This document shows, piece by piece, positions 51,776-60,328 of a stretch of DNA of 64,000 bases. The DNA is taken from contig NZ_CP009571.1 of NCBI RefSeq assembly GCF_000764535.1, forward strand, positions 310,001 through 374,000. Direction: 5' to 3'. The notes beneath the pieces are model-generated. The model worked only from the letters and a program-made list of their open reading frames with translations. It did no database searches and was not told where the DNA came from. Position numbers and translations under genes: made by a program. This DNA is from Sphingomonas taxi (GTDB taxonomy: Bacteria > Pseudomonadota > Alphaproteobacteria > Sphingomonadales > Sphingomonadaceae). Every line of letters starts with the position of its first letter. Position 1 is the first letter of the stretch.

Positions 51776-51796
51776 TGAATGTCTGGTTGTGGGTCA
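51776..51796 (+). repeat. Dispersed intergenic repeat, second half only
   Basis: TGAATGTCTGGTTGTGGGTC immediately after the aldo/keto reductase stop. Confidence 0.45.
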
Positions 51797-52057
51797 ATTC
51801 GTGTGAGTTGCGCCTTCGATCTGCCGCACGATGCCGTTGAGCGCCGCCGTACACCCTTGTGCTCTGCCGATATCGTGATCCGTTCCAGCGGAGTTCCAGA
51901 ACATATCTAGTGGCCAGCGTTCGGGGCAATGCGTGACGAGGCAGCGCAGCGCGAGCCGGACCTCGATCGTGTCGACTTTCCCCTTGTCCGACCGCGCGGC
52001 AGCGGCGCGAAGGATATGGAGCGACAGGTCGATGATGATCCGCTGATGGCGCGACAC
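51794..52057 (-). CDS. Conserved-looking small protein downstream of dnaE2
   Basis: An 87-aa frame starts GTG 52057, 3 bases after the dnaE2 stop. It reads SRHQRIIIDLSLHILRAAAA, VRLALRCLVTHCPERWPLDM and GRAQGCTAALNGIVRQIEGA, a helical and protein-like sequence with three cysteines. Distance and direction make it the fourth gene of the mutasome operon, hence probably SOS-induced. I recognise no family; function unknown. Confidence 0.55.
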   Translation of the reverse strand: MSRHQRIIIDLSLHILRAAAARSDKGKVDTIEVRLALRCLVTHCPERWPLDMFWNSAGTDHDIGRAQGCTAALNGIVRQIEGATHTN

Positions 52058-52060
52058 CGA

Positions 52061-55320
<3,260 letters not shown>

Positions 55321-55321
<1 letters not shown>

Positions 55322-57111
55322 CAGCCGAACAGTCCATGCAGATACCAGCTCAGGTCGCCGGTCGCGCCATCGACACCGTCGCCGCGGCGGAACAGCCAGA
55401 AGCGTGCGCCGGTATCGTCCTCGACGCGGAAATAGTCGCGCACCGCCCATAGCTCGCCGTCGCGCCGCCACCATTCGCCGTGGATGCGCTCGGGGCCGTC
55501 GCCGGCGACGACGGCATGGACTTGGCCACGCCAGGTGAAGCGGCGGGGCGGCGCGTCCGGCAGCAAGGCCAGCACGCCGACCAGCGGCTCCGGCCGACAG
55601 AGCAGGCGCACCGGGCGGCGCCACGCCGGCCAACCAGTCGGGGCAGCGAGCGGCGCGCTGCGACGGACTGCACGCTCAGGCACGTCGCTCTCGACCGGTG
55701 CGGCCGTGAAGAGCGCCTCGTCGCCGACCCGTCCGGCGATCTGATCGACGAGTGTCGCGACGTCCGGGGCGGCATCGTCGCCGGCGAGACTGCCAGCGAG
55801 CGGCGTTGCGCCGAGCGGATCGGTACGGGTGGCGGCGAGCCGCATCGTCTCGATCCCGTCGCCCGGATCGATCGTCTCGATCCTGAGGTGGAAGAGACGG
55901 GCGAGATGGCTCGCGTCGCGCGTCGGTCGCGACGTGCCGATGGCGAGCCGCTGCTCGCTGCCGTCGATCCGCTCGATGACGAGCAGCAACGTGCGGGCGC
56001 CGGCGCCGCGCTCCTGGAGCAGCCCGATCATATCGGCGAGAAGATCGCGGATGACGTGTCCGATCGCCTCGGCGGTGCCGATCGGCTCGAGCAGGCGGCG
56101 GCGGGCCAGCGGCGTCTCCTCCGGGACGACCGGCACGATCGGTTCCGCCACCCGGCCGAGCGCCTCGTCGAGACGGCGCACGCTGGCGAGCCCCAGCCGG
56201 CGCGCGAGGGGGCCGCGCGGCAGCGGCAGCAGATCGGCGATCCGGTCGAGTCCGAAACGCGCCGCGGCGGTCATCGCCTCGGGCGTCAGCCGCAGCGCGG
56301 CGGGCGGCAGGCCGGCGAGCGCCTGCGCCTCGCCGCCGTTCGGAATGGCGCTGATCGCGTCACGCCCGAACCGTGCGAGCGCGTGCGCGGCGCCCGGCGT
56401 TCCCGCCACCGCAACGCGTGCAGTATAGCCGAAGCGCCGGCAGAAGCGGACCAGCCGCCGGCAGAAGCGCGCCTCGCCGCCATGAAGGTGCGCCGTACCG
56501 GTCAGTTCGATCCACAGCCCGTCCGCGCCACTTGCCGCGGCAGTGGGCGTCCAATGCCGCACCGCATGCAGCGAGAGGCTGTCGAGCACCGCGCGATCGG
56601 CGGCGGGATCGGCGGCACGCACGTCGAGCTCTGCCACCAGCGCGCGCGCCTGCGTCACCGCCATGCCGGGTATCAGGCCGAGCGAAAGCGCGGCTGGGCA
56701 CGCGGCGGTGATGACGTGACGTTGACCGGCCTGCTCGGCGAGGACCAGCGGCACCGCATGCGCGACCGGCACGGCCACTGGCGGGGCCGTGGGCGTGCCG
56801 CCTGATGTTACCGGTCGCTTGAACGGATGATCCGCCGCCTCGGAACGCCGGCCGAGCTCGCGCATCGTCGGCTGCTGGTGGCGCGGCAGCGCCGCGGCCT
56901 GCTCTTCGATCGCTGCACGTGCGCCATCGTCGCGCGCCCAGCGTGCGCCCGGGCGCCAGCCGCCGCCCCGCGGCACCGAACAGGCACCGGGGTCGTCGTC
57001 GATCGGCAGCGATGGCGCAGGCTGCGGTTCAGGCAGCGCGCGCGGTCGCTCGAGCCGGCGCAGTCGCTCGATGGCGAGGTGCGGCAGGTAGAGCGAGGCG
57101 ACCCGTGTCAT
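55321..57111 (-). CDS. imuB: ImuB, inactive Y-family polymerase homologue
   Basis: A 596-aa protein related to Y-family polymerases. [20 protein letters not shown] is the equivalent of the palm AxxxGI region, [14 protein letters not shown] the equivalent of the SIDE region, and [20 protein letters not shown] is in the thumb. Catalytic acidic residues are not conserved, as is usual for ImuB, which acts as a beta-clamp adaptor. The N-terminal 130 residues have a Pro/Arg-rich insert. It overlaps imuA by 83 bases and dnaE2 by 1. Confidence 0.92.
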
Positions 57112-57790
57112 CGCATGCCTCCAGTTGCAGGGTGAAGGGAGGACCGCCGCGCTGGCGCGCGAGGTCGACGGTCCAGCGTGCCCGGCCGACGCCGGGGGCC
57201 GGCAGCCGCTCGGACGGCGCGCAGGCGATCCGCCAGCGCGTCATCGCCGCCGAGAGGTCGGACAGGGGCTCGACGCCCGCCTTCCGCCAGCGGCGCGCGA
57301 GCAGCGCCGGGGCATGGCCGCTCATCGCAGCAAGCTGCAGCCGCCGTGTCGCGACCATGTCGGCCCGCTTGACCTCGCCGACGACTGCGGCGAGCCCGCC
57401 GTGGCGCAGGCCGTCTTCCATGACGGCGAGCACGTGTTTGTCGTCGCGTGCCTCGACGAACAGCAGCGTCGCCGGGTCGAGCCCGGCCTGCTCCAGACCG
57501 GGGGCATAGAGGTCGAAGCGGGTCAGCGCCCAGAGCACGCGTTTGCCGGATCGCGCCGCAGCGCGTGCGGCGATGCCGACCGAAAACAGCGTCGCTGCGG
57601 CATCGTCCGTGAGCGTCGGCGTCGCCGGCGACACCTCGTGCAGGCCGCCCAGCACGAGTCCGCCCTCGGCGAGTCGCCTGTCGATCGCATCGATGCCGAA
57701 GGGCAGAACCGCCAGCTTCGGCCCGCGCACGGCACCCAGCTCCTCGCGTAAGCGGGCCAGGGCCTCATCGGGTTGGGGGTTAGCGGACAT
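57029..57790 (-). CDS. imuA: ImuA, RecA-like mutasome protein
   Basis: A 253-aa protein with weak similarity to RecA: LAVLPFGIDAIDRRLAEGGL, GLHEVSPATPT in place of the Walker-type loop, RVLWALTRFDLYAPGLEQAG and GGLAAVVGEV. The C-terminal tail is Ala/Arg-rich. ImuA works with ImuB and DnaE2 in SOS mutagenesis; it lacks an intact P-loop. It is the first gene of the operon; the LexA box lies 19 bases upstream of ATG 57790. Confidence 0.9.
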   Translation of the reverse strand: MSANPQPDEALARLREELGAVRGPKLAVLPFGIDAIDRRLAEGGLVLGGLHEVSPATPTLTDDAAATLFSVGIAARAAARSGKRVLWALTRFDLYAPGLEQAGLDPATLLFVEARDDKHVLAVMEDGLRHGGLAAVVGEVKRADMVATRRLQLAAMSGHAPALLARRWRKAGVEPLSDLSAAMTRWRIACAPSERLPAPGVGRARWTVDLARQRGGPPFTLQLEACDDTGRLALPAAPRHRATAPARATARAA

Positions 57791-57808
57791 GGCTGTTGCG
57801 ACTCATCT

Positions 57809-57823
57809 GTTCGCTATATGTTC
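57809..57823. promoter_or_regulatory. LexA (SOS) box, GTTC-N7-GTTC
   Basis: GTTC-GCTATAT-GTTC matches the alphaproteobacterial LexA consensus exactly. It lies 19 bases before imuA (minus strand) and 44 bases before the GTG of the Cys-rich protein gene (plus strand), so it can control both directions. No other copy of the pattern was noticed in the window. Confidence 0.88.
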
Positions 57824-57866
57824 CCGAATTGTTGACGAAGGGTCAAGGCGTTACGGGAGAGATCCG

Positions 57867-58244
57867 GTGGACCGAAACGGGATCGACGCTGCCGGGTCCG
57901 CAGATAGGACGGCGGCAGCGCGGGCGGACTACGACCATGTCGGGCGTCGCCTGCGCACGCTCGAGCAATGCGCGCTGTACAAGCGAACGTTGCGCCTGAC
58001 CTGCCCGCGCTGCGGTCATGTCCGGGTGCTGGATGCGGTATGCCTGTGGTGGATGTTCAACCGCCGTGGCTGGGACGATGGCCTGCCCGCCGTGGCAGCC
58101 CGCCTGTGCTGCGCCGGCTGCCGTGAGCAGAAAGCAACGGCGCGACCGTGCGTCACGGTCGGTCGCGAACCTCCGACCGGCGCGGCTCTGCCATATCCCG
58201 ATGAGGCGACGTGGAAGAAGCTTGTCTCGCGCCATCGCTCGTGA
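57867..58244 (+). CDS. Small zinc-ribbon-like protein, probably SOS-controlled
   Basis: A 125-aa protein. The start is GTG 57867, preceded by GGGAGAGATCC. It contains two Cys pairs: LTCPRCGHVRVLDAV (CxxC) and RLCCAGCREQ (CCxxC), about 40 residues apart, as in a zinc ribbon, with the conserved-looking LWWMFNRRGWDDGLP between. It looks like a nucleic-acid-binding or adaptor protein. No named family recognised. It is transcribed divergently from imuA and followed 12 bases later by the SRAP gene, so it shares the LexA-controlled promoter region. Confidence 0.65.
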   Translation: MDRNGIDAAGSADRTAAARADYDHVGRRLRTLEQCALYKRTLRLTCPRCGHVRVLDAVCLWWMFNRRGWDDGLPAVAARLCCAGCREQKATARPCVTVGREPPTGAALPYPDEATWKKLVSRHRS

Positions 58245-58256
58245 TCGAAGACGAAG

Positions 58257-58883
58257 ATGTGCAATCTCTATAACTTGAAGGTCGATCCGCGCGGCTATTT
58301 CGATGCGCTCGCCGCGGTCGACGACGCGGCCAACGTGCTGGGGATAGAGAAGGATTATGCCGCCCCCGGCAAGCCCGGCTACGTCGTGCGCTACGAAGAT
58401 GGCCGGCGCGTGCTGAGCACGATGCGCTGGGGCTTCCCGACCCGAAAACCGCGCAAGCGCCTGGCGCGCGAGGGAGAACTGCCGTTCCTCTACGACTGGT
58501 GGACCAACGCCCGCAATCTGCACAGTAACCTTTGGAAGCCCTGGCTGCTACGCACCGAGCATCGCTGCCTCGTACCCTTCACCCGCTTCGCCGAACCCAA
58601 GGCTGTGTCCGACCGGCAGGGGCCGGGCGACACCAACTGGTGGTTCACCGTCGAGGACCAGCCGGTGCCGTGCTTCGCCGGCCTGTGGAAGGTCGATGCC
58701 GACCACGACCGCGTCTATGCCTTCTGCACCACCGAGCCCAATCCGCTTGTCGCGCCGAAACACCCCAAGGCGATGCCGGTGATCCTGCTCGCCGAGGACC
58801 AGGAACGCTGGCTGACCGCGCCGGTCGAAGAGGCCGTGACGCTGCTCACCGCCTATCCTTCGCAATTGATGCAAGTCGCCTGA
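58257..58883 (+). CDS. SRAP (HMCES/YedK-like) abasic-site protein
   Basis: A 208-aa protein beginning MCNLYNL. After Met removal, Cys2 forms the stable thiazolidine link to abasic sites in single-stranded DNA. Active-site partners are visible: the Asn of WWTNARNLHSN, the Glu of FTRFAEPK, and the His of APKHPKAMPVIL. The family shields abasic sites from cleavage and mutagenic bypass. Its position 12 bases after the Cys-rich protein and opposite the LexA box fits SOS control. Confidence 0.92.
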   Translation: MCNLYNLKVDPRGYFDALAAVDDAANVLGIEKDYAAPGKPGYVVRYEDGRRVLSTMRWGFPTRKPRKRLAREGELPFLYDWWTNARNLHSNLWKPWLLRTEHRCLVPFTRFAEPKAVSDRQGPGDTNWWFTVEDQPVPCFAGLWKVDADHDRVYAFCTTEPNPLVAPKHPKAMPVILLAEDQERWLTAPVEEAVTLLTAYPSQLMQVA

Positions 58884-58886
58884 CCG

Positions 58887-59867
58887 ATGGCCCGCAATCG
58901 CTATTACGACGGCCCGCCGAGCGATCATTTCGATGGCATCCGCTTCTTCAATCCCGGTCAGGGAAGCACCGATCGCGGCCTCTCCGATATGCTGCGCTGG
59001 AAGCTCGGCGGCCGTGCGGCAAAATGGCCAGCCTCGGTGCCGATTGTCCCGGCCAAACCCGAGGCACGCGTCGCCGGGCTCCGGATCACGATGGTCGGCC
59101 ATGCCTCGCTGTTGATCCAGGCGGCAGGCCGCAACATCCTCGCCGATCCGGTCTGGTCGGAGCGGGCGAGTCCGTTCCGCCGGGTCGGACCGAAGCGGGT
59201 GACGGCGCCGGGCATTGCGTTCGATGACCTGCCACCGATCGACGTCGTGCTGCTCAGCCACGGTCATTACGATCATCTCGATATCGCGACCTTGCAGCGG
59301 CTGCACGTGGTCCACGACCCGCTGATGGTGATGCCGCTCGGCAACGATGCGATCGTGCGGACGGCTGTGCCGGCAGCCCGTTGCATCACCGGCGACTGGT
59401 GGGACCGGCTGGCGCTCGGCGAAGGCATCGCGACGACAATTACTCCCGCCTATCACTGGTCGAACCGCTGGCCGAGCGACACGCGGATGATGCTGTGGGG
59501 CGGCCATTACCTCGAGACACCCGCCGGCGCGATCTGGTTCGTCGGCGACACGGGCTATGGCGATGGTCGCATCTTCGGCGAGGTTCAAATACGCCTCGGG
59601 GCACCCGATGTCGCGCTGATCCCGATCGGTGCCTATGCGCCGCGCTGGTTCATGGCGGCCCAGCACGTCAATCCGGCCGAGGCGGTGCGGATCTTCTCGG
59701 ATGTCGGCGCAGATCGCGCGCTCGGTATCCATTGGGGGACGTTCCACCTTACCGACGAGGCGCGTGAGGCGCCAGTGGAGGAATTGGCCGCGGCGTTAAA
59801 CGACGCAGGCGTCGCGCCCGAACGGTTTGTCGCGGCCGAAGCAGGCGGGGTCTTCCACTTTCGCTGA
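58887..59867 (+). CDS. MBL-fold metallo-hydrolase (NAPE-PLD/UlaG-like)
   Basis: A 326-aa protein, 3 bases after the SRAP gene. It has the metal motif LLSHGHYDHLD near residue 118 (HxHxDH), GDWWDRLALG, ITPAYHWSNRWPSD, FVGDTGYGDG and the late His of LGIHWGTFHL. These features match the family of lipid or lactonase-type MBL hydrolases, including NAPE-PLD homologues. Nuclease activity is possible for the fold but not indicated by a beta-CASP domain. Its tight spacing suggests co-expression with SRAP under SOS control. Confidence 0.9.
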   Translation: MARNRYYDGPPSDHFDGIRFFNPGQGSTDRGLSDMLRWKLGGRAAKWPASVPIVPAKPEARVAGLRITMVGHASLLIQAAGRNILADPVWSERASPFRRVGPKRVTAPGIAFDDLPPIDVVLLSHGHYDHLDIATLQRLHVVHDPLMVMPLGNDAIVRTAVPAARCITGDWWDRLALGEGIATTITPAYHWSNRWPSDTRMMLWGGHYLETPAGAIWFVGDTGYGDGRIFGEVQIRLGAPDVALIPIGAYAPRWFMAAQHVNPAEAVRIFSDVGADRALGIHWGTFHLTDEAREAPVEELAAALNDAGVAPERFVAAEAGGVFHFR

Positions 59868-60061: not shown

Positions 60062-60328
60062 ATGGCTGAGCCCGCCCGGCATCGCGACATTCGCGTAGCG
60101 CAGCTATTTCGCAACAACCGGAGCCAAGCTGTCCGCATTCCGGCGGAGTTCGAGTTTTCCGGCAGTCGCGTCCTGATCCACAAGGAAGGTGATCGCCTCA
60201 TCATTGAGCCGGAACCTCAACCCAATCTGCTCGACAAGCTTCGATCGTTATCCTCCCTCGATCCTGCCGATGGCCTTCCTGACGATCTCGACAACGCGCT
60301 GCTGCCGCTTAAGGATACCGATCTGTGA
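60062..60328 (+). CDS. vapB: VapB-type antitoxin (AbrB fold), orphan
   Basis: An 88-aa protein. RVAQLFRNNRSQAVRIPAEF is the AbrB/SpoVT-type swapped-hairpin domain of VapB antitoxins, followed by LIHKEGDRLIIEPE and the toxin-binding acidic tail (DDLDNALLPLKDTDL). Its TGA overlaps the GTG of a vapC start by 4 bases, but that toxin gene is cut short. The antitoxin is therefore an orphan. Confidence 0.85.
   Translation: MAEPARHRDIRVAQLFRNNRSQAVRIPAEFEFSGSRVLIHKEGDRLIIEPEPQPNLLDKLRSLSSLDPADGLPDDLDNALLPLKDTDL

Follow-up and report, generated by a model that had tools for sequence, protein, structure and literature searches.

Does the short gap between an error-prone lesion-bypass operon and an operon encoding an SRAP protein in Sphingomonas taxi hold one LexA operator common to both, and what is the role of the cysteine-rich protein encoded beside it? 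We have considered this question for a window of 64,000 nucleotides, by which we mean the whole stretch analysed (G000:C1:310001-374000; positions 310,001 to 374,000 of contig NZ_CP009571.1), in a genome of 4.06 Mb. Cleavage of LexA derepresses promoters bearing a LexA box, the mutasome performs error-prone bypass, and SRAP proteins cap abasic sites in single-stranded DNA. Our analysis indicates that a single LexA operator probably keeps both halves of a divergent SOS lesion-tolerance module repressed, and that the cysteine-rich protein, here called Zn, is most likely an accessory of SRAP. The features concerned are as follows, in window positions.

51794-52057, minus strand: p87, a conserved small mutasome-operon protein, predicted to be a four-helix bundle; 3-base gap to dnaE2
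52061-55321, minus strand: dnaE2, error-prone polymerase (PRK05672, 1331 bits, cut-off 939)
55321-57111, minus strand: imuB, Y-family-like (IMS, PF00817, 5e-10); 83-base overlap with imuA
57029-57790, minus strand: imuA, assigned from NF033429 (1.2e-16, 61 bits, under the curated cut-off of 150) and gene order
57800-57804, no strand: GANTC (CcrM-type) site, 4 nucleotides from the LexA box
57809-57823, plus strand: LexA operator as judged from its sequence, GTTCGCTATATGTTC, of the form GTTC-N7-GTTC and common to both divergent units
57842-57846, minus strand: TTGAC in the imuA sense, the probable imuA -35 element by conservation and spacing
57867-58244, plus strand: Zn, 125 residues, Cys4 zinc-ribbon-like and LexA-linked, with a GTG start and no Pfam family
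58257-58883, plus strand: SRAP, with C2, N84, E113 and H169 intact (PF02586, 1.5e-17); 12-base gap after Zn
58887-59867, plus strand: metallo-β-lactamase (MBL)-fold hydrolase, NAPE-PLD-like (Lactamase_B_2, PF12706, 1.7e-37); 3-base gap after SRAP

The original prediction, made from the letters of this DNA, had described the order imuA, imuB, dnaE2 and an 87-residue gene to the left, joined by overlaps or a 3-base gap, and a Cys-rich 125-residue protein, SRAP and an MBL protein to the right, with gaps of 12 and 3 bases. These coordinates hold, with dnaE2 taken from its ATG at 55321, where it overlaps the imuB stop by one base (the family scans of dnaE2 used a start at 55327, two residues longer than this frame). 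An in-frame ATG at 57789 would extend Zn, and several close relatives begin at the equivalent of the GTG at 57867. DnaE2, SRAP (64.3 bits for PF02586 against a cut-off of 27.1) and the MBL fold were identified by Pfam and NCBIfam; ImuA and ImuB were only weakly recognised, and p87 and Zn found no match in scans of either collection. Relatives of ImuA are present in 100 of the 101 genomes of the genus (E 1e-8).

The GTTC-N7-GTTC reported between the two divergent operons is indeed present, as GTTCGCTATATGTTC. Within the 64 kb the bare pattern occurs at chance level (two copies against 1.67 expected), and its second copy sits within the p87 coding sequence. Across the whole genome it has 72 exact copies, compared with 25 for the reversed pattern used as control, and the probability of an exact copy in the 76-bp gap between imuA and Zn is about 4e-4 at the density of this control. 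By codon-score gene calls, 38 of the 72 fall within coding sequence and the other 34 do not, at least two of these 34 being miscalled: the boxes at an HU-type gene and at pdeM, first called intergenic, lie in or across the first codons and were not counted as operators. An exact box is found before recA, lexA (which has two), uvrA, a uvrD/pcrA-type helicase gene, dut, parE and a PA0069-type radical SAM gene, and directly behind others lie rmuC, mmcB, an S24 peptidase gene, a ribonucleotide reductase gene and a radA-like gene, the last name being our assumption from domain content. The genome encodes LexA itself at the locus with two boxes (L159, TIGR00498) and RecA at L006 (TIGR02012). A second, divergent imuA-like and imuB-like pair with its own LexA box lies at G000:C1:3151158 (L182), where GAGTC stands on either side of the box; neither gene of this pair found a family match, and both were named by eye from their order and N-termini. 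Given these exact copies before recA, lexA, uvrA, dut, mmcB and other genes, the box at 57809-57823 is, as far as sequence can tell, a LexA operator, and a box stands between imuA and Zn in all 13 divergent loci, the window included.

The Zn family provides a separate line of evidence, for its members were collected by protein sequence alone and a box upstream of them is therefore an independent observation. GTTC-N7-GTTC lies within 1.5 kb upstream of Zn in 57 of 64 rows, while eleven control tetramers of the same composition gave 0-6 of 64; even among rows with no ImuA match in the available DNA, 39 of 41 have a box. The 64 rows include duplicates: L036 and L109 come from one contig, and a broken reading frame divides each of them in two; L093 is the same locus as L121; and the pairs L201/L202 and L204/L205 are each near-identical. 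Counted by cluster of upstream sequences, after removal of one artefact from a broken gene, 38 of 42 clusters have a box. Two of the four boxless clusters have the arrangement imuA-imuB-dnaE2-p87-Zn-SRAP, in which the box precedes imuA; L122 is cut by a contig end, and L115 is unexplained. Fifteen weaker Zn loci, examined last and only about 3 kb long, show a box in 14 (controls 0-2 of 15), one of which, at L049, has a GC-rich spacer and may be due to chance. The search for a box covered 30 of 35 same-family and 33 of 45 same-genus Zn rows. On these counts the earlier proposal that one LexA site coordinates bypass with abasic-site protection holds in part: the box is of LexA type and Zn-SRAP is linked to the mutasome, and "one site" is too narrow because Zn has its own box in nearly all stand-alone loci.

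At E 1e-3, Zn is detected in 36 of the 101 genomes of the genus and in 28 of 199 from the family, and a broader profile (E 1e-5), here of limited sensitivity, found it in 2 of 385 genomes of the class. Close relatives of Zn lie in four named loci, three of them from Sphingomonas and one from Microvirga sp. SRT01. Cysteines C46, C49, C82 and C85, forming two CxxC pairs, are present in 28 of 28 aligned members. Across the wider set they are not invariant, all four being present in 58 of 64 rows; of the six rows that fall short, four represent halves of a single broken gene, and in L034 and in L206 one cysteine is missing. We describe Zn as a LexA-linked family without a Pfam entry and as a zinc-ribbon-like protein that presumably binds zinc.

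How closely, then, is Zn tied to the mutasome? Zn-SRAP is found in two ARRANGEMENTS and in free cassettes: divergent from imuA, behind dnaE2-p87, and stand-alone or on plasmids. The 13 divergent loci include an annotated Sphingomonas parapaucimobilis replicon (L199) carrying the same seven genes, p87 being recognised there by profile. The same unit is present in Sphingomonas melonis (L033). Five complete loci, and a sixth that a contig end truncates, have Zn-SRAP behind dnaE2-p87 in the same operon; the remaining Zn loci are stand-alone or lie beside other imuA-like genes on plasmids. Conservation of the linkage to imuA, for which the original prediction had proposed a comparison across genomes, is borne out for the strong Zn copies (>120 bits) of the 101 genus genomes, since 13 of 15 lie within 6 kb of a listed ImuA match, one of these matches being a fragment; of the other two, that in G249 ends at a contig break and that in G281 has no linkage. 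None of the 22 weaker copies tabulated lies within 8.5 kb of an ImuA among the matches listed. The table covers 37 of 45 same-genus Zn rows; the eight left out include the second half of a broken gene (G297:C5:67259), and one untabulated weak copy (G220:C10:140712, E 7e-4) sits beside a p87 match and 5.3 kb from an ImuA match. All such pair counts, for Zn and for p87, rest on the ImuA matches listed, from which weaker ImuA rows are omitted. The unit is modular, because different parts of it are kept in different genomes: L106 has its mutasome reduced to a piece of imuA beside a complete box-Zn-SRAP-MBL, L034 keeps box-Zn-SRAP-MBL with a piece of imuA and with key residues of Zn and SRAP changed, and G214 has retained the mutasome without p87, Zn or SRAP.

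The SRAP of the window has C2, N84, E113 and H169 intact and is predicted to cross-link to abasic sites in single-stranded DNA. The same Cys2, Asn, Glu and His positions occur in YedK and HMCES as described in PMC9436759, where human HMCES is stated to inhibit mutagenic translesion synthesis and a residue study of YedK is stated to have found that the Asn mattered little; unlike those proteins as compared there, the present SRAP sits in a LexA-type unit with Zn. Mutasome-linked SRAPs keep all four residues in the loci compared, with the exception of L034 (Asp for Asn). Stand-alone SRAPs are more variable: L129 has Gln at both the Asn and the His position, and at the Asn position L133 and L135 have Arg and L134 has Asp. 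Tandem SRAP pairs occur at seven stand-alone loci (L112, L118, L119, L120, L124, L126 and L128), with one copy bearing the catalytic residues; in the second copy of all seven pairs Asn replaces both Glu and His, and the two readable second copies have Ala or Ser at position 2, the start being unaligned in the other five. The S. taxi genome holds a second SRAP copy with a stop within the match, near degraded p87-like pieces (G000:C1:1650186-1652284, L195), and these are perhaps remnants of another mutasome locus.

The partnership proposed between Zn and SRAP must be weighed against the alternative that Zn is an independent SOS effector, such as a damage-induced regulator or an inhibitor of division or replication, which merely shares promoters with SRAP. 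What speaks for the partnership is that 53 of the 64 rows have SRAP no more than 3 kb from Zn, and that pairwise distances among Zn proteins correlate with those among Cys2-bearing SRAPs (r 0.78 over 44 loci), even when the comparison is confined to stand-alone cassettes (r 0.45 over 24 loci); neither value was reached in any of 2000 permutations, and the correlation leaves shared ancestry in. Three observations weigh against it. Zn has its own box and no SRAP within 3 kb at L125, L127 and L131 despite longer DNA; a box is present before Zn at seven of the eight later three-kb loci without a visible SRAP, although at that length SRAP may lie just outside; and the Zn fold is generic and weakly matched. 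We consider the independent effector unlikely, while granting that it retains real weight.

A second alternative is that Zn-SRAP is mainly a mobile-element cassette, devoted to plasmid maintenance or to protection of single-stranded DNA during transfer, which was captured beside the mutasome. In its favour, Zn occurs on 11 sphingomonad plasmids, six of them typed as conjugative, the stand-alone cassettes carry variable extra genes, and abasic capping of single-stranded DNA would suit conjugative transfer. The box is present at all 11 plasmid loci, and Sphingobium plasmids provide three near-identical loci in which Zn is again transcribed divergently from an imuA-like gene, which is annotated as "damage-inducible protein". 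Against this explanation, the mutasome-linked form is conserved in many genomes of the same genus and in two arrangements, the Zn of the window found no relative in 50,697 phage records, and none of the mutasome-linked type was confirmed in IMG/VR; we judge it improbable as the main function. As separate observations on these cassettes, their first genes encode members of a 65-71-residue "MQHD" family (p70) and of DUF6771 (e.g. L110, L112, L113, L120 and L128, and further L196, L197, L206 and similar loci). The tails of 9 of 14 distinct p70 proteins match Q[LP]xL[FLW], against a mean of 0.1 and a maximum of 2 in shuffled sequences; 1 of 11 DUF6771-like tails does so, and 9 of 11 match a looser form scored without a shuffled control. 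We presume this tail motif to resemble a sliding-clamp-binding motif.

The layout of the shared promoter bears on a third alternative. In 12 aligned divergent promoters the imuA TTGAC -35 element and a GACTC site are invariant and the remaining flanks drift (the alignment was cut by the box pattern, so that only the flanks count as independent evidence). Of 31 distinct imuA promoters, 30 have TTGAC no more than 60 nucleotides upstream of the box, most often at a distance of 19 or 23 nucleotides; because of this conserved element, and inferring from the spacing, we place the LexA box over the presumed imuA -10 region as the probable arrangement. In two of 34 ImuA rows the 150 bases next to the open-frame start contain no box: at L107 one lies slightly farther away, and at L144 none adjoins imuA. 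That the box serves imuA only, with Zn-SRAP-MBL an unrelated neighbour under a constitutive promoter, would agree with this placement, with the box lying 18 nucleotides from imuA against 43 from Zn, and with a simple sigma-70 scan of the intergenic region which found no promoter in either direction, that of Zn included, but it is very improbable given the box at 39 of 41 Zn rows lacking an ImuA match and at 14 of the 15 later loci, and given the decayed mutasome of L106 with its retained box and right-hand genes.

A further feature of these promoters is the density of GANTC sites. Within 60 bases of the LexA boxes of imuA promoters GANTC occurs at 20.1 per kb (29 of 29 boxes), and around those of stand-alone Zn cassettes at 13.4 per kb (29 of 32), relative to 0.8-5.8 per kb for control palindromes and a window background of 1.1 per kb. 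Around the boxes of other confirmed SOS genes in the same genome the figure is 2.6 per kb (4 of 13, namely the S24 peptidase, both lexA boxes and the reductase; 4 of 15 before the count was repeated without the two miscalled boxes). The comparison is uneven, as these boxes come from one genome and those of imuA and the cassettes from many. Every one of the 31 distinct imuA promoters has a GANTC no more than 20 bases to the 3' side of the box, and none overlaps it; among cassettes, one falls inside a box (L117). The middle base varies, evenly in cassettes and with a bias to GAGTC at imuA. The genome encodes GcrA and a protein with a RAMA domain, a domain which we take to be linked to CcrM.

A GcrA/CcrM promoter survey (PMC7987155) reports that imuA orthologues of Caulobacteraceae and Hyphomonadaceae have a conserved GANTC upstream, and explains this by overlap with the LexA motif. 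That explanation does not fit the sphingomonads, because no imuA GANTC overlaps the box and the sites lie outside it. Depletion of CcrM in Agrobacterium is described as raising recA and three imuA orthologues among SOS-related genes (PMC11514494), a rise which DNA damage alone could also explain, and the description of lexA induction in Brucella as independent of GcrA (PMC6813329) speaks against a regulatory role for GANTC. We advance one further possibility tentatively, from sequence features and as rather doubtful at this time: in sphingomonads the mutasome and the Zn-SRAP cassettes may form a distinct SOS sub-regulon that responds both to cleavage of LexA and to methylation by CcrM of the GANTC sites around the LexA box, with the promoter-plus-cassette also carried on conjugative plasmids together with small proteins ending in clamp-binding motifs. 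If this were true, two-signal control would couple both activities, mutagenic bypass and the capping of abasic sites, to the moment at which the replication fork passes.

Turning to the remaining members of the two units, p87 has matches in 51 of 101 genus genomes, and of its 50 copies scoring at least 98 bits, 38 have a listed ImuA within 8.5 kb and share its strand in every case; we regard it as a genuine mutasome-operon member. Its model is four-helical and confident (pLDDT, the predicted local distance difference test score, 94.4), and comparison of this model with known structures returned no informative match. The MBL protein, which the original prediction had counted among the uncharacterised partners, fares differently: across the 13 divergent loci its gene is intact in nine, broken in one and unmatched in three, no match was found in any of the six loci with the order dnaE2-p87-Zn-SRAP, and among solved structures the protein comes closest to NAPE-PLD (4qn9, 5.4e-55 over residues 55-318); a role as partner is on these grounds not supported. 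Its sequence contains an HGHYDH motif, and we regard the hydrolase as a clade-specific passenger outside the core. Just past its gene, at 60062-60328, lies a VapB-like antitoxin gene that scores below curated cut-offs. In mycobacteria ImuB carries a clamp-binding motif; a narrow canonical form of the pattern is absent from 33 of 34 sphingomonad ImuB rows, that of the window among them. Among 32 DnaE2 rows, the 14 nearest to that of the window have QMDFPH, in one case as QMNFPH, at a distance of 57 residues from the frame's end; it is missing from L107, another locus with p87-Zn-SRAP.

From the anatomy, operator, conservation, linkage and SRAP residues, all read from sequence, we infer a mechanism in which LexA would bind the operator and, on its cleavage after DNA damage, both divergent units would be derepressed, each induced as a co-transcribed set. 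The left unit would supply the ImuA-ImuB-DnaE2 mutasome and the helical p87 for mutagenic bypass. In the right unit SRAP would covalently cap abasic sites in single-stranded DNA through Cys2, and Zn, with its four cysteines in a zinc-ribbon-like pattern, most probably would act as its accessory, either recruiting SRAP to single-stranded DNA or the fork, or handling the cross-link; the MBL hydrolase would belong to the right-hand unit of one clade and not to the core. It follows from repression of both units by one LexA operator that the two arms would rise together, so that abasic sites may be shielded while other lesions are bypassed.

Part of this was already known. The association of SRAP with the mutasome was published in 2013 by Aravind et al. 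(PMC3765255), in whose account SRAP likewise lies next to ImuA-ImuB-DnaE2. The zinc-ribbon-like partners mentioned there belong to SRAP-Ku neighbourhoods and are set apart from Zn here by their description rather than by sequence; the divergent LexA-box layout, p87 and the plasmid cassettes are sphingomonad features beyond that account as far as it addresses this association. Co-induction has also been seen in a sphingomonad: RNA sequencing of Sphingopyxis granuli TFA under anoxia in 2019 gave lexA and recA 6-fold up, imuABdnaE2 11-12-fold up, and 8-10-fold increases both for SRAP-alkB with nearby locus tags and for a group of six tags with SRAP proteins (PMC6472365). That strain has two imuA-imuB-dnaE2 operons and SRAP groups co-induced with lexA and recA; the stress differs, being anoxia, and the account as it concerns these genes includes neither LexA sites nor a Zn protein. 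By analogy the co-induction fits our model, in another strain and short of proof of LexA control. New here are a Zn family linked to LexA boxes, the mobile cassettes that carry it, and the crowding of GANTC sites at mutasome and cassette promoters.

SRAP proteins are called SOS-associated largely on account of gene neighbourhoods, as set out in PMC3765255. Zn, a family found by its own sequence, predicts a LexA box at nearly every locus examined, usually with SRAP alongside. This gives a testable partner for SRAP and a natural system in which bypass and abasic-site shielding would stand under one switch, and the promoter signature of a LexA box plus GANTC could connect SOS mutagenesis in these organisms to the cell cycle.

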